20,399 nt of DNA from a virus. Positions within the stretch are counted from its first letter, which is position 1; each line of letters starts with the position of its first letter. The stretch lies in IMG/VR virus record IMGVR_UViG_3300032284_000414, positions 1 through 20,399 of that record; one strand, 5' to 3'. Positions 3 through 19,503 of the stretch are shown here, one piece after another. Under the pieces are notes generated by a model. That model ran no database searches, was not told the DNA's origin, and saw only the letters and a list, made by a program, of their open reading frames with translations. Both the position numbers and the translations under genes were made by a program.

Positions 3-437
3 ATTGAATCATTTATTCAATTGAAAGAAGAGTTTTCTGATGCAGTTTTTATTCGTGAAGTAGTTAAACGTCTTGAAAATTATGGGGTTGGTGCGCTTTT
101 AAATAAATTTCGTCAAGAAAAGAAAAATGCAAAGAGAGGTCGGAGAGTTGCTAAAACTGTTGGTGTTATAATTTCTAGGTTTACAGATCAATTAGAACTT
201 TTTGATGCTGAGGTGTATTATGAGGCATTAGAAGGAACTTTGGCTGAAGCTGGGTATTACCCAACTAATTTTTCTAATATTTGGAAGAATGAAACTAACG
301 GTCAACTAATTAAGTTGATTGTTCTTCCCGCACGGCATGAAAGTTATAAAGTTGTTACGACCTGGAAATCTTTTAAAGACTGTATTATGTTCAAAGAATT
401 AGAGGATAATAATATTGTCACTCTCAAAACAGCGTAA
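3..437 (+). CDS. hypothetical protein, 5' end outside the window
   Basis: The reading frame is open to the left edge: codons from base 3 read in frame through the TTG at base 21, so the true start is probably upstream. The visible part is about 144 residues ending at a TAA at 435-437. It is soluble, with a basic stretch (KNAKRGRRVAK) and no membrane segment. I do not recognise a family. The last bases overlap the start of the next gene (TTG at 415), so the two are probably co-transcribed and translationally coupled. The position beside a DNA-modification-like gene suggests a link to that pathway, but this is weak inference. Confidence 0.7.
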   Translation: MESFIQLKEEFSDAVFIREVVKRLENYGVGALLNKFRQEKKNAKRGRRVAKTVGVIISRFTDQLELFDAEVYYEALEGTLAEAGYYPTNFSNIWKNETNGQLIKLIVLPARHESYKVVTTWKSFKDCIMFKELEDNNIVTLKTA

Positions 438-1407
438 AGAAACTTTCACTAAGTGGTATCGCTGGTCACTTTCCATAAAGGATTGTGATCCAGCAATATC
501 CATGACCAACTACTTGTTCCGTAGGTTCGAGCATAACAAAGAACAACAACTTTGGATTGCTTGGATCTACGGAACAACCTATCACCTTCCAACTACTTGG
601 GTGATCTGGAATGAGTTCCCAGACATGGAGCTTGTTGGTGTTGATAGATTACAGAAGTGGAACAATGATAACTACAAGAGGCTACGTTATCAGACAGACA
701 CTAAATGGAACAAGGGACATCTTCCTCAGCAATTCATATCATACAAGAACTGGGTTGGAGATCGTTCACAGCAGGAATCTTTTTATAAAGGGTTTGTTGA
801 AGGAAGTCCAAAACTAAATTTTAGAAATTTGTTTGAAGAAGTCAAAACGAAGTTCCATAAATTTGGTCGTTACTCCACTTGGTTTTATTTACAAACACTA
901 AAGCAGTGCTGCGGATTTCCTATTGAACCAGACAGTCTAATGCTTGAGGATTATAGTGGTTCTCGCTCTCATCGTAATGGTTTGTGTCTAGCTTTAGGTA
1001 AAGATGATTGGTATGATAAGAAGCTTGATGCTGAGGAACTGGCATATCTAGACGTACAGTCATATATGATTCTAGAAGAAGTTCGCAAAGAGTTTCCTAA
1101 TACCGATTACTTTGACATGGAAACTTGTCTTTGTTCCTTTAAGAAATTATTTAGAAAAAGTCGTGGTAGATATCTAGGATACTATCTTGATCGTCAGGCT
1201 GAAGAAATTCAGCAGTGTGAGCAGGATGATTGGTTTGGTATTGATTGGAAACCACTTTGGGATTCTAGAAATGAAACCATAAATAATAAGCTGTTGACTA
1301 ATAAGATAAATCATAGTAAGATGGCATTGTACCTTGACAATAATGTTCTAGATGCTACTGGATTATTTGAAAACAATAAAGTGGGTCTAGATTTTTTTAT
1401 GGAGTGA
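415..1407 (+). CDS. putative amino-acid:DNA transferase / alpha-glutamyl-putrescinyl thymine pyrophosphorylase (aGPT-PPlase-like)
   Basis: A 330-residue protein starting at TTG 415, eight bases after an AGAGGA ribosome site at 401-406; no better ATG lies nearby. It resembles the aGPT-PPlase family, which has a DNA-glycosylase-like helix-hairpin-helix fold and replaces a pyrophosphorylated 5-hydroxymethyl-deoxyuridine with an amino acid or polyamine in phage DNA. Landmarks are IYGTTYHLPTTWVIWNEFP (51-69), a W/R/D-rich stretch (82-100), FGRYSTWFYLQTL (150-162), HRNGLCLALGKDDWYD (186-201) and YLGYYLDRQAEEI (253-265). The assignment is by remembered motif pattern, not a search. The next gene is a kinase of the type that makes this enzyme's precursor, which strengthens the call. 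The TGA overlaps the next gene's ribosome site. It could instead be a glycosylase-fold relative with a different role. Confidence 0.65.
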   Translation: MSLSKQRKETFTKWYRWSLSIKDCDPAISMTNYLFRRFEHNKEQQLWIAWIYGTTYHLPTTWVIWNEFPDMELVGVDRLQKWNNDNYKRLRYQTDTKWNKGHLPQQFISYKNWVGDRSQQESFYKGFVEGSPKLNFRNLFEEVKTKFHKFGRYSTWFYLQTLKQCCGFPIEPDSLMLEDYSGSRSHRNGLCLALGKDDWYDKKLDAEELAYLDVQSYMILEEVRKEFPNTDYFDMETCLCSFKKLFRKSRGRYLGYYLDRQAEEIQQCEQDDWFGIDWKPLWDSRNETINNKLLTNKINHSKMALYLDNNVLDATGLFENNKVGLDFFME

Positions 1408-1409
1408 TC

Positions 1410-1958
1410 ATGAAAGTAGTTGCGTTGATGGGAGAACCAGGGTGCGGCAAGTCCACCCTTATGCGTAGACTTATGACTCAGTGGAGATTTGATGCTACCA
1501 CTCTTAAACAAGATTTCAAACTAGTTCCTTATCATTATAAAGGCTTTCCTAACGGAGACATTTATATCCTCGGTAAGTATGAGGAAGGTGAAGTCTTTGC
1601 TGGTACAGACCGTATGAGTATGGCTGTTCAGCCTGAAGCTATTAAGTTTCTTGATACGCTACCTGACACTGCTATCGTTTTGTTTGAAGGCGACAGACTT
1701 TGCACCGCATCATTCCTAGAGAATTGTGCTAACAAGTTTGATACTAAAATCATTTACCTACAAACCGACAGAGATATCCGCAAAGAGCGTTATGCTGAGC
1801 GTGGTAGCAATCAAAATGAAACTTGGTTGACAGGTAGAGAATCCAAGATTGGTAACATCCTTACCAATATGGAACTGATGTTCATTACTGAGAAGATGAA
1901 GAATAATAATATTGAAGAACAGAACAGTGTTGTTGACTATATTAACACTTTGCTTTAG
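1410..1958 (+). CDS. P-loop kinase, probable 5-hydroxymethyl-dUMP DNA kinase type
   Basis: A 182-residue P-loop protein. The start is ATG 1410, five bases after GGAG at 1401-1404; an upstream in-frame GTG at 1404 lies in the ribosome site and is disfavoured. Walker A GEPGCGKST is at residues 8-16. A GKYEEGEVFAGTDRMSM segment and a hydrophobic strand ending FEGDR (probable Walker B region) follow. A basic DIRKERYAERG stretch could be a lid. This organisation resembles the P-loop kinases that phosphorylate 5-hmdU within phage DNA before amino-acid transfer. Pairing with the upstream aGPT-PPlase-like gene fits that pathway. A nucleotide kinase acting on free nucleotides is the main alternative. 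The last codons contain a promoter for the next gene. Confidence 0.65.
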   Translation: MKVVALMGEPGCGKSTLMRRLMTQWRFDATTLKQDFKLVPYHYKGFPNGDIYILGKYEEGEVFAGTDRMSMAVQPEAIKFLDTLPDTAIVLFEGDRLCTASFLENCANKFDTKIIYLQTDRDIRKERYAERGSNQNETWLTGRESKIGNILTNMELMFITEKMKNNNIEEQNSVVDYINTLL

Positions 1959-2278: not shown

Positions 2279-2941
2279 ATGAAATTTAATTATTTAGAAG
2301 AAGTTGATGTTCTTGTTATAGATGATTTTTATAGCAAGGATAATCTAAAAGAAATAAATGCAGAGCTGACAGCATTAACAAGTCCTGCTATAATGAAATC
2401 CAGTAATTCTTCTTCTGGTGGTGCGTTAGGTGCATTAACAAATAATATTGGAGAACCTCTAACTTCTAAAACTGGACTGTATCTAGAGAAATATTATACA
2501 AAAAACATTCTTGAAAGATCAGCTTTAGTTAGATTGACACGAGAAATTATAATAAGTCAAAAATTCTTAAAGAAGCTGCATGAAGTAAATCCTTTCTTTA
2601 AAATTATTGGTAGTGAAGAAATTTATGCTAGTCATCTTTTATCTTATTACGAAGATGGAGATTATTATGCTAGACATCATGATATTTCTTCCTTTACTTT
2701 TTTCGCTTATTTCCATAAGAAACCAAAGAAGTTTGCTGGTGGTGATTTAACTGTTTACTCTTATGATAATAAAAAGCAAGTAGATATTGAACCTAATGAC
2801 AATAGAGTTATTTTGTTCCCTGGATGTACAGAGCATGAAGTGAAACGTGTTAATTCAGAATTCAAACATAGTTATAGTGGTAAGGGTCGTTATTGTTATA
2901 GTATGTTTTTCAATATTAACACCATACCTCGAGTTGGCTGA
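2279..2941 (+). CDS. 2OG-Fe(II) oxygenase, prolyl-4-hydroxylase-like
   Basis: A 220-residue protein with the double-stranded beta-helix signature of 2-oxoglutarate/Fe(II) dioxygenases. H133-x-D135 in ARHHDISSFT, distal H186 in CTEHEV and R204 in GKGRYCYSMFFNI supply the iron and 2-oxoglutarate ligands. The FAGGDLTVY and RVILFPG strands are typical of the fold. The substrate is unknown: phage members may hydroxylate proteins, and a DNA base target is conceivable because of the neighbouring modification-like genes. It starts two bases after the previous stop with a weak AAGG ribosome site. The codons are A+T-richer than in the neighbouring glycosyltransferase gene. A late promoter element begins immediately after the TGA. 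Confidence 0.85.
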   Translation: MKFNYLEEVDVLVIDDFYSKDNLKEINAELTALTSPAIMKSSNSSSGGALGALTNNIGEPLTSKTGLYLEKYYTKNILERSALVRLTREIIISQKFLKKLHEVNPFFKIIGSEEIYASHLLSYYEDGDYYARHHDISSFTFFAYFHKKPKKFAGGDLTVYSYDNKKQVDIEPNDNRVILFPGCTEHEVKRVNSEFKHSYSGKGRYCYSMFFNINTIPRVG

Positions 2942-2988: not shown

Positions 2989-3951
2989 ATGGAAGTCAAG
3001 CTACCAGTTGAAGAACTACGAAAGCGTAAGCTCTTTATTGCCACTCCTATGTATGGTGGTATGTGTGCGGGTATGTTTGCTCGTAGCACTAACGATCTAT
3101 CTGCCCTTGCTGTAAAGTATGGTATTGAGCTTCGTTACTACTATCTCTTTAATGAATCGCTAATCACTCGCGCTCGTAACTATTGCGTTGATGAGTTTAT
3201 GCGTTCAGATGCCACTCATCTACTATTCATTGACTCTGATATTGGTTTCAATGCCAATGACGTAATCACGATGCTTGCGTTACAGTCCGATGAAAGTGAA
3301 TATGATATTCTATGCGGTCCTTATCCTAAGAAGTGTATCTCTTGGGAAAAGATTAAGTTAGCTGTCGATAAGGGTATGGCTGATGACAATGTCAATAACC
3401 TAGAGAAGTATGTTGGCGATTATGTGTTCAATCCTGCTGGTGGTAGAACTGAAATTAAGATTGATGAACCTGCTGAGATCCTAGAGTCTGGCACTGGGTT
3501 TATGATGATTAAGAAGTCAGCACTAGAGAAGATGGGTAAGGCATATCCTGAACTAGTATACAAGCCTGACCATGTACGCACCGCAGCGTTTGATGGCTCA
3601 CGCCTTATCATGTGTCTGTTTGATGCTCTTATTGATAACAAGTATGCGCATCTTCGTACTGACATTAGGAAGTTCTATGATAAGAATCCTAATGCTTCGC
3701 AAGAAGATGTGTTGAAGTATGTTGATGATACCATGCATGATGCAGATGGTAATGAATACTCTAATCGCTACCTGTCAGAAGATTATATGTTCTGTCAGTG
3801 GGCACGAAATATTGGTTTACAGGTATGGTTATGCCCGTGGATTCAATTACAGCATGTTGGAACTTATGTGTTCGGTGGTTCCCTTGCTGACTTGGCATCT
3901 GTTGGTGCTGCCGCTACAGCCGATCCGTCCCAGCTTGGTAAGAAATCTTAA
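2989..3951 (+). CDS. GT-A-fold glycosyltransferase
   Basis: A 320-residue protein with a family-2-like layout: an N-terminal strand KLFIATPMYGG (14-24), a nucleotide-sugar/metal motif IDSD (D82, D84) in HLLFIDSDIGFN, and a later SEDYMFCQWARNIG segment in the usual acceptor/catalytic-base position, followed by QHVG. There is no signal peptide or membrane helix, so it should act in the phage-infected cytoplasm. Related proteins occur near replication genes of T4-like environmental phages. The acceptor is not evident: surface polysaccharide, a virion protein or a modified DNA base are all possible. A strong AAAGGTGA ribosome site precedes the ATG. The stop overlaps the ribosome site of gene 45. 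Confidence 0.75.
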   Translation: MEVKLPVEELRKRKLFIATPMYGGMCAGMFARSTNDLSALAVKYGIELRYYYLFNESLITRARNYCVDEFMRSDATHLLFIDSDIGFNANDVITMLALQSDESEYDILCGPYPKKCISWEKIKLAVDKGMADDNVNNLEKYVGDYVFNPAGGRTEIKIDEPAEILESGTGFMMIKKSALEKMGKAYPELVYKPDHVRTAAFDGSRLIMCLFDALIDNKYAHLRTDIRKFYDKNPNASQEDVLKYVDDTMHDADGNEYSNRYLSEDYMFCQWARNIGLQVWLCPWIQLQHVGTYVFGGSLADLASVGAAATADPSQLGKKS

Positions 3952-3963
3952 GGAGATAATATA

Positions 3964-4620
3964 ATGAAGTTTAGTGATGTGACTCTTGATGTGTTGAAGA
4001 ATTTTTCCTCTATTAATTCTAGCATGCTTTTCCGTAGTGGTAATACAATTCGTACTATCTCGCCGCAAAAGACTATTATGGCGAAGGCAGAAGTTGACGA
4101 AAGCTTTGATAAGGATTTCGCGATTTATGATCTGCCACGTTTCCTAGGTGTTATGTCTTTGTTTGAAAAGCCAGAAGTGACTTTGAATGACAAGGAAGCA
4201 GTCATCCTAGATAACTCGCGTAAGCTAGTATATACCTATGCTGATGCCTCGACGTTTGCTACTCCTCCTTCTAAGGATGTAACATTCCCTGATGCTGAAG
4301 TTAATTTTACTCTAAAGAACGAAGATCTTCAGAAGGTTCAACGTGCTGGTAATGTTCTTCAGCTACCTGAAATTGCTGTGGTTGGTGATGGTACGACTAT
4401 CGCGCTGAAGGCGTATGATAGCAAGAACCCAACAGCTGACTCTTATGTTGCAACTATTGGTACGACTGATCGTGTGTTTAATGCAATCTTTAAGAATGAA
4501 AACTTGAAGCTTATCCCCGCTGACTATGACGCATCCGTTTCGTCTAAGGGTATCTCCAAGTTCACTTCTGCTAAGATTACATATTGGATTGCCACTGAGG
4601 CAACTTCAACTTTTAACTAA
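3964..4620 (+). CDS. 45: DNA polymerase sliding clamp (gp45)
   Basis: A 218-residue trimeric processivity clamp, compared with 228 residues in T4. The N-terminal MKFSDVTLDVLKNFSSINSSMLF closely parallels the T4 gp45 start, and FAIYDLPRFLGVMSLF matches its AIYDLNGFLGILSL segment. The clamp is loaded onto DNA by gp44/gp62, tethers gp43 and, in T4, also activates late transcription. AGGAG at 3951-3955 overlaps the preceding stop and lies 8 bases before the ATG. It is followed directly by a promoter and a 10-bp hairpin that separate it from the clamp-loader genes. In T4 the mRNA of this gene is a RegA target; regA is encoded nearby. Confidence 0.96.
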   Translation: MKFSDVTLDVLKNFSSINSSMLFRSGNTIRTISPQKTIMAKAEVDESFDKDFAIYDLPRFLGVMSLFEKPEVTLNDKEAVILDNSRKLVYTYADASTFATPPSKDVTFPDAEVNFTLKNEDLQKVQRAGNVLQLPEIAVVGDGTTIALKAYDSKNPTADSYVATIGTTDRVFNAIFKNENLKLIPADYDASVSSKGISKFTSAKITYWIATEATSTFN

Positions 4621-4649
4621 TTGACTTATTTGAGGGGAGGAGTTATACT
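4621..4649 (+). promoter_or_regulatory. sigma70-type promoter, TTGACT-17-TATACT
   Basis: The -35 TTGACT at 4621-4626 follows the gene 45 stop directly. The spacer is 17 bp and the -10 TATACT is at 4644-4649. Transcription start is predicted near 4656. It would drive the zinc-ribbon gene and 44-62-regA. Confidence 0.7.
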
Positions 4650-4661
4650 AGACTCCTCCCC
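4634..4661 (+). terminator. 10-bp G+C-rich hairpin after gene 45
   Basis: A perfect inverted repeat: GGGGAGGAGT at 4634-4643 and ACTCCTCCCC at 4652-4661, with an 8-base loop. It is followed by ACCCCTTTA, not a clean T-run, so it may be a weak terminator or a 3'-end stabilising structure. The promoter's -10 lies in the loop. Confidence 0.55.
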
Positions 4662-4687
4662 ACCCCTTTATATTATGGAGTTATATT

Positions 4688-4903
4688 ATGAATAGACAAG
4701 ATAGCGCAAGGAAGCTTCCAAGAAACCTAACAGTTAGAACTGTATTTGGTGATATTGAAGTTAATACTAAAAAGTGTAACACCTGCCATGTTACAAAACC
4801 TGTTGATGCCTTTTACTTAAAGTCTAAATCTACAAGAAGGCACCCCGATTCTATTAGGGAGCAATGCATTACTTGTTGGGACATTAACAAAGGCAGGAAG
4901 TAA
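4688..4903 (+). CDS. small zinc-ribbon-like protein
   Basis: A 71-residue basic protein with two CxxC knuckles, C30-x2-C33 (KCNTCH) and C60-x2-C63 (QCITCW), separated by 26 residues; this is expected to bind one zinc ion. The pattern resembles the isolated zinc ribbons seen at the edges of phage HNH-type proteins, but no nuclease motif is present. GGAG at 4677-4680 precedes the ATG. It sits between gene 45 and gene 44, which are adjacent in T4, and has its own promoter. A nucleic-acid-binding role is plausible; the actual function is unknown. Confidence 0.75.
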   Translation: MNRQDSARKLPRNLTVRTVFGDIEVNTKKCNTCHVTKPVDAFYLKSKSTRRHPDSIREQCITCWDINKGRK

Positions 4904-4907
4904 TATC

Positions 4908-5846
4908 ATGTTAGAAGATTATCTGTGGGTGGAGAAATACCGACCCAAGACTATTGATGAGTGTATTCTTCCTGATGAACTAAAGAAAACGTTTCAGCAG
5001 TTTGTTGATCAGAAGAATATTCCTAATCTATTACTGACTGGTGGTGCTGGTGTAGGTAAGACTACTGTAGCACGTGCTATGTTAGAACAACTTGATTGCG
5101 ATTATATTGTAATCAATGGATCACTTAATGGTAACATTGATACTCTGCGTGGTGAGATTTCTCAATTCGCATCAAGTGTTTCCTTTAAGGGTGGTCGCAA
5201 GTATGTCATCCTAGATGAAGCTGACTATCTAAATCCGCAAAGCACTCAACCTTCTCTGCGTAATTTCATGGAAGAGTTTAGTCGCAACTGTGGTTTCATT
5301 CTCACTTGTAACTATAAGAACAAGCTTATTGCTCCTTTGCATTCTCGTTGCTCAGTTGTTGAGTTCAGGATTGCTAAGAAGGATAAGCCATCACTTGCTA
5401 TGCAGTTCATGAAGCGAGTAATGGATATTCTTCAGAAGGAAAATGTTCCCTTTGAGAAGGATGTTGTTGCTGAAGTTATTGGTAAGTATTTTCCTGATTG
5501 GAGAAGGGTACTAAATGAACTACAAAGACATTCTGCGACTGGCAACATCGGACAAAGTGTTTTGGGCGGTCTTTCTGGTGATTCTTATAAGGCTCTTCTT
5601 GAAGCTCTAAAGAATAAGAACTTTAGTGCAGCTCGTAAGTGGTTGGGTGAAAACTCTGATCTTGATAGTGCTACTCTATTCCGTCACATGTATGATAATA
5701 TCTCTGAGATTGTCAAGCCGGAGTCGATTCCCTATCTAATCCTACACCTAGCTGACTATCAGTATAAGGCAGCGTTTGTTGCTAATCCTGAGATCAACCT
5801 AGCAGCGTTCATTGCCCAAGTCATGAGTGACTGTGAGTTCAAATGA
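4908..5846 (+). CDS. 44: clamp loader large (ATPase) subunit (gp44)
   Basis: A 312-residue AAA+ ATPase of the T4 gp44 / replication-factor-C type. It begins YLWVEKYRPKTIDE, the usual RFC-box start. Walker A GGAGVGKT is at 45-52, Walker B ILDEAD at 101-106, sensor 1 ILTCN at 131-135 and the arginine-finger motif SRC at 146-148. Four copies with one gp62 open and load gp45. The ATG is preceded by AGGAAG overlapping the previous gene's end. The 3' end overlaps gene 62 in an ATGA, the same coupling as in T4, which helps set subunit stoichiometry. Confidence 0.96.
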   Translation: MLEDYLWVEKYRPKTIDECILPDELKKTFQQFVDQKNIPNLLLTGGAGVGKTTVARAMLEQLDCDYIVINGSLNGNIDTLRGEISQFASSVSFKGGRKYVILDEADYLNPQSTQPSLRNFMEEFSRNCGFILTCNYKNKLIAPLHSRCSVVEFRIAKKDKPSLAMQFMKRVMDILQKENVPFEKDVVAEVIGKYFPDWRRVLNELQRHSATGNIGQSVLGGLSGDSYKALLEALKNKNFSAARKWLGENSDLDSATLFRHMYDNISEIVKPESIPYLILHLADYQYKAAFVANPEINLAAFIAQVMSDCEFK

Positions 5847-6313
5847 CCGATGTATTCAAGGTCATGGTTAAAGCGAGTGATGTTAAAGAGCCAGTAGTCG
5901 AAGATCATAAGGTAAAGGCTCAATACAATCCATTCGACTTTATCAATAGCATCAATTCCCATAAGGATCTGTTCGCAGGAAGTGAGACCCCTGAGACAGT
6001 CGAGAAGGAATATACCCCCTGGATCGTTAATAAGGGGTTATCCTACTTCGCAGATACAGTAGAATCAGCTAACTTCGTCAATCGTTACCACCAGCTGGAC
6101 AAGAAAGTACAGTATGATTATTTAATAAATACTATACGTTCTAAGAAGCGCATGAGTAAATGGTGGAAGAAAGAGGATAATAATGACGTTGAAATGGTGA
6201 AAGAAGCCTTTGGTTATTCCCAGAAAAAGGCTGAAGTTGCTTTGTCATTACTATCCCCCGAAAACCTTAAAGATATAAAAAGAAGATTGAACAAAGGTGG
6301 GTTGAAGAAATGA
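5843..6313 (+). CDS. 62: clamp loader small subunit (gp62)
   Basis: A 156-residue protein, compared with 187 in T4. NPFDFINSIN, EKEYTPWIVNKGLSYF, and HQLDKKVQYDYLINTIRSKKR are characteristic of the gp62 family. It forms the fifth, non-ATPase subunit of the clamp loader. The ATG overlaps the gene 44 stop (ATGA), so translation should be coupled. The first 25 residues before NPFDF show no recognised motif. The gene ends in another ATGA overlap with regA. Confidence 0.93.
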   Translation: MTDVFKVMVKASDVKEPVVEDHKVKAQYNPFDFINSINSHKDLFAGSETPETVEKEYTPWIVNKGLSYFADTVESANFVNRYHQLDKKVQYDYLINTIRSKKRMSKWWKKEDNNDVEMVKEAFGYSQKKAEVALSLLSPENLKDIKRRLNKGGLKK

Positions 6314-6717
6314 AATTATCTATTGATTCATTAATAGAGGTTCTGCTAAAAGAACCTGACGATTTCCTTAAGGTCAAAGAGACTTTAACACGAATCGGCA
6401 TCGCTTCTAGAAAGACTAAGATTCTGTATCAGTCTTGCCATATCCTTCATAAACAGGGTAAGTATTACATTGTACACTTCAAGGAGCTATTCGCCCTTGA
6501 TGGTAAGCCGACAGACTTTTCAGATAGCGATGAGGGTCGCAGAAACACTATTGTGAATCTATTGGCTGAATGGGGTCTTATTAAGATTGCTACTCCAGAT
6601 AAGACCAAAGAGCCAGTAACTCCCTTGAGCCAGATAAAGGTACTGCCTTATAAAGAAAAGAGTGAGTGGGAACTTGTGACGAAATATAACATAGGACGAT
6701 CTGGTTCTAAAAATTAA
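6310..6717 (+). CDS. regA: RegA translational repressor
   Basis: A 135-residue RNA-binding repressor. Residues from about 13 onward align by eye with T4 RegA: the EPDDFLKVKETLTRIGIA, LYQSCHILHKQGKYYIVHFKE and LLAEWGLIKI segments are nearly identical. In T4 it represses translation of its own mRNA and those of 44, 45 and other early genes by binding near their start codons. It has about 12 extra N-terminal residues and a slightly longer tail than the 122-residue T4 protein. The overlap with gene 62 matches the T4 62-regA junction. Confidence 0.95.
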   Translation: MKLSIDSLIEVLLKEPDDFLKVKETLTRIGIASRKTKILYQSCHILHKQGKYYIVHFKELFALDGKPTDFSDSDEGRRNTIVNLLAEWGLIKIATPDKTKEPVTPLSQIKVLPYKEKSEWELVTKYNIGRSGSKN

Positions 6718-8248: not shown

Positions 8249-8272
8249 CAGGTGAACCAATCAGGATTTACC

Positions 8273-9007
8273 ATGAACAAGTTTAGAAGCTTCGTCCGGG
8301 AAGAGTTAGCATTAACGCTACAGTATCACGATACTCTAAACCAGCTTATCTGGGATGGCGAGAAAATGATACCTAAGATTCAGGATAGGCTCCTTCAGAT
8401 TGGTAATATGTGGGCTGAGTTCGCCCATATCCCCGAAGATGCTATAAGAGACATCGTTCTAACTGGCGGTAATGCCAATTACAACTATACACCTTATTCT
8501 GATTTAGATGTACACATCCTTATGGATATGTCTAAGCTTCCTCATGATAAAGAGTTCCTAGCTGACTATCTTCTCGATAAGAAGATGCTTTGGGCATTTA
8601 AGCATCCCTCATTAACTGTCATGGGTTATCCTGTAGAACTATATGCTCAGAACTATAGAGATCCGGTTGCTTCTCATCAGGGTGTGTATTCTCTTCTTAA
8701 AAAGAAGTGGCTCTATAAACCTAATATAGAAAATCATCCTGACTTCGAAAACGATATCGCTCTTAAAGCTAAGATTGAAGAGTACATTAAGATGCTTGAT
8801 ACCGTTCTCTCTGAACCAGGTGATCATATGGCTGAGATTAAGAAATTAAAAGAAAAGTTTAGAGAGATGCGTTCAGCTGGTATTCATCAGTCAGGTGAGT
8901 TCAGCAATGAGAATCTTATCTTTAAAGAATTGCGTAATCGTGGATACTTTCAGAAGTTGAATGATTACCTACAAAAAACAATGGATACGCAATTAAGTCT
9001 TTACTAA
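8273..9007 (+). CDS. nucleotidyltransferase (polymerase-beta-like fold)
   Basis: A 244-residue protein with the nucleotidyltransferase signature: LTGGNANYNYTPYSDLDVHIL gives G65-G66 followed by D77 and D79 as metal ligands. A long helical region follows (about 150-200), and no accessory domain is recognised. The reaction would be transfer of a nucleotide to RNA, protein or a small molecule; the substrate is unknown. ATG 8273 is preferred because AGGA at 8263-8266 is well spaced and the GTG at 8252 precedes the predicted late start. It is divergent from the endolysin and directly upstream of gene 43. Confidence 0.8.
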   Translation: MNKFRSFVREELALTLQYHDTLNQLIWDGEKMIPKIQDRLLQIGNMWAEFAHIPEDAIRDIVLTGGNANYNYTPYSDLDVHILMDMSKLPHDKEFLADYLLDKKMLWAFKHPSLTVMGYPVELYAQNYRDPVASHQGVYSLLKKKWLYKPNIENHPDFENDIALKAKIEEYIKMLDTVLSEPGDHMAEIKKLKEKFREMRSAGIHQSGEFSNENLIFKELRNRGYFQKLNDYLQKTMDTQLSLY

Positions 9008-16642: not shown

Positions 16643-16670
16643 AAAGGGTGGGGGAAACTCCACCCTTTTT
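16643..16670 (+). terminator. rho-independent terminator
   Basis: An 11-bp stem, AAAGGGTGGGG (16643-16653) with CTCCACCCTTT (16658-16668), one G-U pair, a GAAA tetraloop (16654-16657) and a run of five T's ending at 16670. It lies 18 bases after the H1-like gene and just before the next promoter. Confidence 0.92.
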
Positions 16671-16672
16671 GC

Positions 16673-16701
16673 TTGACTTTTTATCTCTTTTCAGGTACAA
16701 T
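16673..16701 (+). promoter_or_regulatory. sigma70-type promoter, TTGACT-17-TACAAT
   Basis: The -35 TTGACT is at 16673-16678, two bases past the terminator. The spacer is 17 bp and the -10 TACAAT is at 16696-16701. Start is predicted near 16708, about 21 nt before the HAD gene. Confidence 0.7.
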
Positions 16702-16728
16702 AAGTATGTAAAAGAGAGAGTTGTAAGA

Positions 16729-17337
16729 ATGAAGAGTTTCAGAGAGTTCGAAAAAGATAATTTAGATCATACCCTATTCATATTCGATATCGATGATACT
16801 CTATTCAAGACGAATGCTAGGGTGTTCGTTAAGGATCCGAGTGGTAAAGTCATCGACCGACTAAACAATCAAGACTTCAATACTCATACGCTCCTACCGG
16901 GACAAAGCTATGAGTTTTCTGAGTTCAAAAATGCCAGTATGTTTGATATGACTAGTCGTCCTATCAAGGCTATGTTGGATATGGTAAAGCATCTTCAGAA
17001 AAAGATTGAAGGCACTGGTAGTCTGATCACCTTTATCACTGGTCGTTCTGACTTTGATAATAAAGAAAAGTTCTTGAACGTTTTCCGTAAGAGGAATATC
17101 GATATCGATAAGATCCACATTCATAGAGTGGGTAATGATCCGGGTCCGGAAACTATAGCAGTTAAGAAGGCCAAGGTAACTACCATGTATCTCGCTACTG
17201 GTAAATACAAGACAGCTGAGATGTATGACGACAGCAAAGAAAACTTAGAAGAGTTCAAAAGCCTTCAGAGTAGTTTTCCTGATGTATCGTTCTCTGCGTT
17301 TCAGGTGTTTCATAACGGAACGTCTAAACAGTTATAG
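16729..17337 (+). CDS. HAD-superfamily phosphatase
   Basis: A 202-residue protein. Motif I is DIDDT (D20, nucleophile; D22, acid/base), motif II is the TGRS in FITGRSDF, a lysine follows in the DNKEKF region, and the acidic motif IV is MYDDSKEN. This order is that of HAD phosphatases. The substrate is unknown: nucleotides or 3'-phosphate ends of nucleic acids are reasonable for a phage. ATG 16729 is chosen because the longer frame would start inside the terminator; an AGAGAG stretch may act as ribosome site. It is likely co-transcribed with the following oxygenase gene. Confidence 0.85.
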   Translation: MKSFREFEKDNLDHTLFIFDIDDTLFKTNARVFVKDPSGKVIDRLNNQDFNTHTLLPGQSYEFSEFKNASMFDMTSRPIKAMLDMVKHLQKKIEGTGSLITFITGRSDFDNKEKFLNVFRKRNIDIDKIHIHRVGNDPGPETIAVKKAKVTTMYLATGKYKTAEMYDDSKENLEEFKSLQSSFPDVSFSAFQVFHNGTSKQL

Positions 17338-17345
17338 GTTTAATT

Positions 17346-17957
17346 ATGAAACGTGATGAAATATTTCCTACTATTATTTGGCATGATGTTCTTCCTATAG
17401 ATAATTCTGTTATTCTATCTGGGTGTAAAAGGTTGCAAAAAGAAAGACCAATCTCAGCACGCAAAAGTAATGTTGGTGGTTGGCAGAGCAAAGATATTTG
17501 GTATAAAACTGTGCCAGAGTTTCATGAATTAGAAGAAATTATTCTTCTTCATGCAACTAAAATTTACGCAAATCAAATGAGAATGGATAGAAATTATGAG
17601 CTCTGGTTTCATACCATGTGGATCAATATAAATAAAAACAGAGATTATAATCAAACACACACGCACCCACGAGCTCTCTTGAGTGGAGCATATTATGTTA
17701 AGACTCCTAAAGATTGCGGAAAATTAGTATTCCCACGAAATTATGATGAAGTCAATTTTATACATGCATTTCATTCAAATATTTCCCAAGATGGAGAAGC
17801 TGATCTACACATGGGAACTAAAGAATATGAACCAAAAGAAAAAAAATTAATATTGTTCTTAGGAAATACTCCTCATTTCGTGCAACCAAACAACAGTAAT
17901 GAAGAAAGAATATCAATTTCTTTCAATTTAGAATGTAGAGAAAAAAAGCCCCGTTAG
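17346..17957 (+). CDS. 2OG-Fe(II) oxygenase-like protein (TIGR02466-like)
   Basis: A 203-residue protein. THTHPRALLSGAYYV carries H105 and H107, LFLGNTPHFVQPN carries distal H177, and ERISISFNLE carries R188. This is the layout of the TIGR02466-type putative oxygenases common in T4-like environmental phages, in which H-x-H(P) stands where H-x-D is usual. The substrate is unknown. The codons are A+T-rich compared with the HAD gene. The last 10 bases, including the TAG stop, lie inside tRNA-Thr, so mRNA and tRNA processing must compete. Confidence 0.8.
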   Translation: MKRDEIFPTIIWHDVLPIDNSVILSGCKRLQKERPISARKSNVGGWQSKDIWYKTVPEFHELEEIILLHATKIYANQMRMDRNYELWFHTMWININKNRDYNQTHTHPRALLSGAYYVKTPKDCGKLVFPRNYDEVNFIHAFHSNISQDGEADLHMGTKEYEPKEKKLILFLGNTPHFVQPNNSNEERISISFNLECREKKPR

Positions 17958-18879: not shown

Positions 18880-19503
18880 ATGAGTTATGTGACAACAAAA
18901 ATGCTTGACCTTGATCTTAAGAAGATGAATAAAAGCTGCCATAAGATGTATCTTTTTATTAAAGAGAATTTTACACCTGATGGTAAGACAGATTATAGTG
19001 GCCAGAGTACAATGACCACAAAGTTATACTCTCAGTATAATCTTATGATGTATCCTCAACCAGAGTTTCATGAATTGTTTTTAGAAATTCAAAAATATTT
19101 TCATGAAATTGCTAATCCGACAGAACCACATTATGCTCAGTTCTGGTTAAACTTCTATACCAATGGGGAATATATTGATTGGCACCACCATTGGCCAATG
19201 AGTTATAAAGCTTGGCATGGATTTTATTGTGTCAATTCAGAAAATCCTGAAAGCAAAACAACCTACAGAGTTCCTCCTGCTAATGGAATGCAAATAAAAA
19301 ATCCTGAGAAGCATGAAGAAGTTGAAATCATCAGTAAGAACAACCTTCTAGTCATCAGTCCAAGTGCTGGTGATCAACATAGAAGTTGGCCATGGGAAGG
19401 TAATGGTGAACCAAGAATCACAATTGCTTTTGATATTGTACCAAGATCACAATTCAACAAGCAGGGCAATCCCATACAAAAAAATCATTGGATCCCAATT
19501 TAA
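18880..19503 (+). CDS. putative 2OG-Fe(II) oxygenase-like protein
   Basis: A 207-residue protein. WHHHWPMSYKAWHGFYCV (H102-H104) fits the first iron-ligand strand, PSAGDQHRSWPW supplies distal H167, and EPRITIAFDIVP supplies R179 for 2-oxoglutarate. The pattern parallels the gene at 17346, with an H-x-H in place of H-x-D, and is similar to oxygenase-like proteins of cyanophage-type T4 relatives. AGGAGA at 18869-18874 precedes the ATG. The substrate is unknown. It is the third member of this superfamily in the window. Confidence 0.7.
   Translation: MSYVTTKMLDLDLKKMNKSCHKMYLFIKENFTPDGKTDYSGQSTMTTKLYSQYNLMMYPQPEFHELFLEIQKYFHEIANPTEPHYAQFWLNFYTNGEYIDWHHHWPMSYKAWHGFYCVNSENPESKTTYRVPPANGMQIKNPEKHEEVEIISKNNLLVISPSAGDQHRSWPWEGNGEPRITIAFDIVPRSQFNKQGNPIQKNHWIPI

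Follow-up and report, generated by a model that had tools for sequence, protein, structure and literature searches.

The window, i.e. the whole stretch of DNA analysed here, is a 20.4 kb virus fragment of an incomplete genome, the 5′ edge of which falls inside a gene. Close to this edge two ORFs lie on the + strand at 415–1407 and 1410–1958, with 2 bp between them. The first encodes 330 amino acids from a TTG start and overlaps the end of the upstream gene (1–437, +), the frame of which is open to base 1 and which constitutes the C-terminal end of a hypervariable gene, referred to below as the slot gene. The second encodes 182 amino acids from an ATG at 1410, with a GTG at 1404 as a possible alternative start. 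On the same strand there follow a DUF3310 protein (1968–2276; PF11753, E = 2e-9) and a phrog_1574 glycosyltransferase-like protein (2989–3951; E = 2e-62). An earlier note made from the sequence alone had read the two ORFs as an aGPT-PPlase/AADT-like protein and a kinase of the 5-hmdU type adjoining the replication core of a T4-like phage, and had suggested that this phage carries a modified base. The ORF coordinates were confirmed, the family matches of the pair proved to be far above chance, and the placement beside a T4-like replication core was supported.

Profile searches with the 415–1407 protein gave a match to PF18724, the amino acid:DNA transferase (ADDT, or AADT) family, at E = 4.1e-22 (79.5 bits against a curated cut-off of 26.2) and to phrog_3271 at E = 1e-57, with a match to aGPT-PPlase3 slightly below its cut-off. 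Approximately 100 columns are invariant in an alignment of 32 ADDT proteins with identity down to 62%, and the protein is thus under coding constraint. A structure predicted from these 32 aligned relatives is all-helical (pLDDT 79, pTM 0.83) and has a helix-hairpin-helix glycosylase-like fold as in PUGT, the 5-phosphomethyl-dU glycinyltransferase of phage PaMx11 (substrate according to the entry title). PUGT (8z2n/8z2m) was the best fit among solved structures (Z = 16.6, rmsd 3.5 over 245 residues), followed by a queuine salvage enzyme (Z = 10.8) and helix-hairpin-helix DNA glycosylases (Z of about 7–10). Sequence searches of both the ADDT and the kinase against solved structures gave no meaningful match, and the link between ADDT and PUGT comes from fold comparison only; that between ADDT and gp51 of phage M6 runs through their shared Pfam family, direct profile comparison being uninformative. 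Judged by family and predicted fold, 415–1407 is a putative amino acid:DNA transferase, with transfer to 5-phosphomethyl-dU as its predicted reaction, in agreement with the earlier assignment.

The 1410–1958 protein is a P-loop nucleotide kinase, presumably acting on 5-hydroxymethyl-pyrimidines in DNA, that matches PF18751 (Ploopntkinase3; E = 2.4e-14, 53.8 bits against a cut-off of 27) and phrog_800 (E = 1e-15), and carries the conserved motifs GEPGCGKS (Walker A), GTD and EGDR. phrog_800 also contains M6 gp54, a PF18748 5-hmdU DNA kinase, and direct profile comparison using hhalign aligned the window kinase with gp54 at 94% probability (E = 1e-7), which points to common ancestry. PF18747 and PF18748 were absent among the best 25 of the 30 families matching the window, whereas the kinases of SH19 and M6 do match PF18747/PF18748. 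Likewise, the helical partner PF18723 gave no match in genomes G000–G009, Cr30 or Melnitz and was matched in SH19 and M6. On sequence grounds the window protein is akin to the named 5-hmdU kinases, yet outside their Pfam families, so that the kinship claimed in the earlier note holds. The phrog_800 name, ‘terminase small subunit’, is misleading, and several presumed base kinases in public records are labelled either thus or as ‘adenylate kinase’ (Magpie gene 4, Rinkes gene 8 and Cr30 gp114).

The window pair closes a conserved cassette of seven genes that is cut by the contig edge. Positions 1–2017 are 98.3% identical to positions 4489–6505 of a related locus, L001, where the genes upstream encode a 447-amino acid TET/JBP dioxygenase at L001 57–1400, a class-II glutamine amidotransferase (Cys2), an amidoligase-like protein and a GNAT protein, giving the order TET/JBP – amidotransferase – glutamine synthetase (GS)-like amidoligase – GNAT – GIY-YIG/ParB slot – ADDT – kinase. 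Gene orders were read across 80 related loci, which were found by ADDT similarity and are not independent. Where at least 700 bp of sequence follows ADDT (76 viral loci), the kinase is present in 72, and the common order runs MazG – TET – amidotransferase – (amidoligase) – (GNAT) – (slot) – ADDT – kinase – DUF3310 – phrog_1574 – clamp. Where the flanks comprise at least 5.6 kb upstream and at least 1.5 kb downstream (21 loci), TET and the amidotransferase are present in all, the kinase in 20 and the amidoligase in 16. A second order occurs in L067 and L073–L079, with TET immediately after ADDT and ahead of the kinase where the sequence extends so far; the order ADDT – TET – kinase was seen in L074, L078 and L079.

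No Tet_JBP match was obtained in the window at E = 0.001, the TET gene itself lying outside it. An intact TET/JBP gene linked to the pair was found in relatives, PF12851 being matched in all nine long relatives as well as in Cr30 and Melnitz, and the H-x-D, H and R residues that form the Fe and 2OG ligands are invariant. The same association of TET, ADDT and kinase recurs in distant lineages, namely Cr30 and the mycobacteriophages Magpie and Prince. We consider it very improbable that these genes are non-functional remnants, or that their targets are not the bases of phage DNA (but e.g. tRNA or the nucleotide pool): the kinase does resemble small-molecule kinases in general, with many weak AAA/kinase matches for 1410–1958, but the ADDT, TET and kinase active sites are strongly constrained across the family, the operon is kept in two gene orders and the ADDT model has a PUGT-type fold.

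The tailoring genes upstream of the pair suggest what may follow amino acid transfer. Of 21 amidoligase members, 14 gave weak matches to PF12224 (best E = 4.8e-4, those listed falling below the cut-off), and the predicted amidoligase model (pLDDT 92) has the glutamine synthetase/YbdK fold, with Z = 10.7 to YbdK and Z = 9–10 to many glutamine synthetases. Amidation of the carboxylate installed by ADDT is the simplest reading of an amidoligase together with a free-standing class-II amidotransferase. This step is uncertain because 5 of the 21 loci lack the amidoligase yet keep the amidotransferase, and the latter may also supply ammonia to another enzyme; for example, delivery to ADDT itself may give 5-aminomethyl-dU.

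The slot gene is located between GNAT and ADDT and is swapped wholesale between near-identical phages. The window fragment (1–437) matches the 3′ portion of the slot gene in L001 (3495–4925, 476 amino acids). L001 and L004 are 98.9% identical over the 3,474 bp before the slot and 98.5% identical after it, with about 1.4–1.5 kb between that cannot be aligned (L001 3475–4913, L004 3612–5130); the same pattern of swapping was seen between L048 and L052, the flanks of which are 99.6% and 97.4% identical. The gene is absent from many loci, with a clean junction between L029 and L027. The 41 slot proteins fall into 13 clusters, and most combine a GIY-YIG-like start with a ParB-like DGNxR..AA segment whilst others have an HNH-like start, a domain reading made partly by eye from weak profile matches. 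In Magpie, Terij, Rinkes and Tonitrus, too, a ParB-like gene adjoins a TET, kinase or deazaguanine gene. The slot would be explained by an intergenic homing element, or else by a partner that evolves rapidly and serves in targeting or in killing competitors.

Downstream of the pair, the DUF3310 protein is the next gene in most loci, and as a widespread phage protein it is a doubtful member of the cassette. The phrog_1574 protein lies between the kinase and the sliding clamp in 19 of 21 loci and is possibly a further base-modifying enzyme; homologues occur in DLP6, which has a TET, in phiM12 and in phages lacking ADDT. Since it also occurs in phiM12, where it lies beside the clamp, and in many cyanophages, it is not specific to the cassette, and we rejected it as a core part. 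TAGT glycosyltransferases gave no match in the window or its relatives. Elsewhere in the window, 8252–9007 encodes a protein of phrog_36119 that weakly matches a nucleotidyltransferase family (PF01909, below cut-off) and is kept at a different position in genomes G001 and G002, and 16648–17337 encodes a HAD-like protein similar to the phosphatase domains of polynucleotide kinases (phrog_415, E = 1e-8).

The earlier note had assumed the classical start to thymine hypermodification, and had remarked that the partner enzyme is absent from the window. By this route, proposed for M6, ViI and phiW-14 (PMC6449724), a dUMP hydroxymethylase encoded elsewhere would lead to 5-hmdUTP and its use by the polymerase, the kinase and ADDT would act afterwards, and TET would have some other job. 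The window's own record, at merely 20.4 kb, leaves room for such a gene, but PF00303 (thymidylate synthase/hydroxymethylase) gave no match in nine relatives of 50–162 kb, whilst the positive controls SH19 (ViI-type), Cygsa01 and M6 were all matched. Four relatives encode ThyX instead. Furthermore, TET is absent from SH19 and Cygsa01, and TET and hydroxymethylase are mutually exclusive among the phages tested for both. Cr30 does encode a PF00303 protein (E = 4e-113), which looks like an ordinary ThyA by its segment IWNSWADENG, which we take to be the usual thymidylate-synthase tryptophan segment. We therefore regard a hydroxymethylase start as highly unlikely, and the absence from the nine relatives probably refutes this route, and this route only. 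The proposal of a modified base survives because a TET/JBP dioxygenase occupies the same cassette in the relatives, in every one readable far enough.

Other sources of the hydroxymethyl group were also considered and rejected. ThyX belongs to a methylating thymidylate synthase family and is patchy in the relatives. The 2OG oxygenases of the window (2279–2941, 17346–17957 and 18880–19503) are generic 2OG-FeII_Oxy_3/_5 proteins with no Tet_JBP match. The first of these was rejected as the hydroxylase also because, although present in the window and L002, it is missing between DUF3310 and phrog_1574 in L001, L003 and L004, a distribution that looks like recent insertion or loss.

TET enzymes act on either thymine or 5-methylcytosine. 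No match to the C5-methyltransferase family PF00145 was obtained in the window, G001–G010, Cr30, DLP6, C48C1, S-CBWM1, Magpie or Terij, in a search in which control genomes gave matches. This lack of a C5-cytosine methyltransferase in the relatives, Cr30 or Magpie favours, and does not prove, thymine as the substrate base; a methyltransferase could be encoded in unsequenced parts of the relatives (contigs, none proven complete) or provided by the host. We see it as unlikely that TET converts 5mC, made by a host or unseen phage methyltransferase, to 5hmC and that the kinase and ADDT then hypermodify cytosine. Phage TETs reportedly act on 5mC, according to Burke et al. in 2021, and Melnitz has an HhaI-like C5-methyltransferase, a TET/JBP and a related kinase close together, a neighbourhood suggesting that the TET and kinase group can go with cytosine. 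Against such use in the present cassette, besides the PF00145 result, Melnitz gave no match to the ADDT family (PF18724; there was no positive control in the same search, although the model matches the window, Cr30, M6 and Magpie proteins), and the structurally solved ADDT uses 5-phosphomethyl-dU, as its entry title states. Among the phages examined Melnitz alone fits the cytosine scheme.

Other phage gene sets also came to light during these comparisons. In Melnitz, a Methylophilales phage, positions 4010–8090 of L082 encode in a row an HhaI-type C5-methyltransferase, a TET/JBP, a 427-amino acid protein with no family match and a PF18751-like kinase. This looks like a cytosine hypermodification cassette, and is not remarked as such in the searched passages of the phage's own paper. 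DLP6 (L123) and S-CBWM1 (L125) encode a TET/JBP, annotated as ‘SNF2 DNA repair protein’, together with a TAGT-type glycosyltransferase (PF20691 above cut-off) and no C5-methyltransferase, and by this gene content are candidates for base-J-like glycosylated hmU in phages.

Returning to thymine as the favoured substrate, the cassette can be set against known systems. It shares with the classical hydroxymethylase system the ADDT family, a P-loop kinase of the same superfamily and the expected phosphorylation followed by amino acid installation (PMC6449724). It differs in having TET/JBP and no hydroxymethylase, in having a PF18751 kinase rather than PF18747/PF18748 with no PF18723 partner, and in tailoring by an amidotransferase, a GS-like amidoligase and GNAT, whereas the neighbours of ADDT in M6 are a PLP-type enzyme and a radical-SAM protein. 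The Bclasvirinae mycobacteriophages Magpie and Prince have a ParB – TET – ADDT – kinase module, as here with a TET/JBP, a PF18751 kinase, ADDT and a ParB-like gene; neither a hydroxymethylase nor a C5-methyltransferase was matched in Magpie, and Prince gene 2 is annotated as ‘thymidine hydroxylase’. In Rhodococcus phage Tonitrus, ParB, Tet-like, aGPT-PPlase2 and 5-hmU kinase genes have been described as one hypermodification system (PMC11955845), with aGPT-PPlase2 where the present cassette has ADDT. These modules comprise four to five genes at the genome start (in Magpie beside the terminase), have no amidotransferase, amidoligase or GNAT among the listed genes, and encode proteins about 28–33% identical to those of the cassette. 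The T4-like genome of Caulobacter phage Cr30, which is complete, encodes a TET, an ADDT and a kinase belonging to the same PHROGs but, unlike in the cassette, these genes are scattered over approximately 9 kb, with a weak TAGT-type glycosyltransferase beside ADDT and no neighbouring amidotransferase or amidoligase annotated.

In phages, TET/JBP cytosine modification combines a 5mC methyltransferase, TET and a TAGT glycosyltransferase, and base J of kinetoplastids is made by JBP and a glucosyltransferase. With these systems the cassette shares a TET/JBP dioxygenase that makes the hydroxymethyl group after replication; here, however, the next steps fall to a kinase and an amino acid transferase rather than a TAGT, and no C5-methyltransferase was found. 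Iyer et al. in 2013 reportedly predicted that the products of TET/JBP serve phages as a point of departure. The parts are known, whereas the combination and the starting step are unlike the textbook route. New, as far as checked, are the T4-like environmental lineage with its added amidotransferase, amidoligase and GNAT, the consistent lack of both hydroxymethylase and C5-methyltransferase, and the slot gene.

Taken together, gene content and order make it likely that the cassette carries out post-replicative thymine hypermodification by TET, kinase and ADDT, probably followed by amidation and acylation. TET/JBP, encoded just outside the window, would hydroxylate thymine in DNA at its methyl group, yielding 5-hydroxymethyl-dU, and the kinase (1410–1958) would phosphorylate the new hydroxyl. 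The amine of a free amino acid would then displace the phosphate through ADDT (415–1407), giving an aminoacyl-methyl-U. The class-II glutamine amidotransferase and GS-like amidoligase would probably convert the carboxylate of the installed amino acid into an amide, and GNAT would probably acylate the amidated product, the outcome being a bulky thymine derivative that would shield phage DNA from nucleases. The choice of base and of amino acid, the sequence and chemistry of the tailoring steps and the protective function are inferences. More tentatively, and with rather less than even confidence, the full pathway may consist of a JBP-like thymine hydroxylase acting on finished DNA, leading to an undescribed base whose 5-methylene bears an amino acid that is amidated and perhaps also acylated, with a GIY-YIG/ParB partner choosing sites or destroying unmodified competitor DNA.

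If post-replicative thymine hypermodification is correct, common environmental T4-like phages would hypermodify thymine with the nucleotide pool unchanged, by means of the enzyme family responsible for base J in trypanosomes, and 5-hmdU-derived bases would have a second, post-replicative origin. The cassette would also supply enzymes for attaching amino acids to thymines in DNA, and the target of phage TET/JBP proteins in phages lacking a C5-methyltransferase would become directly testable in the cultured phages Cr30 and Magpie.
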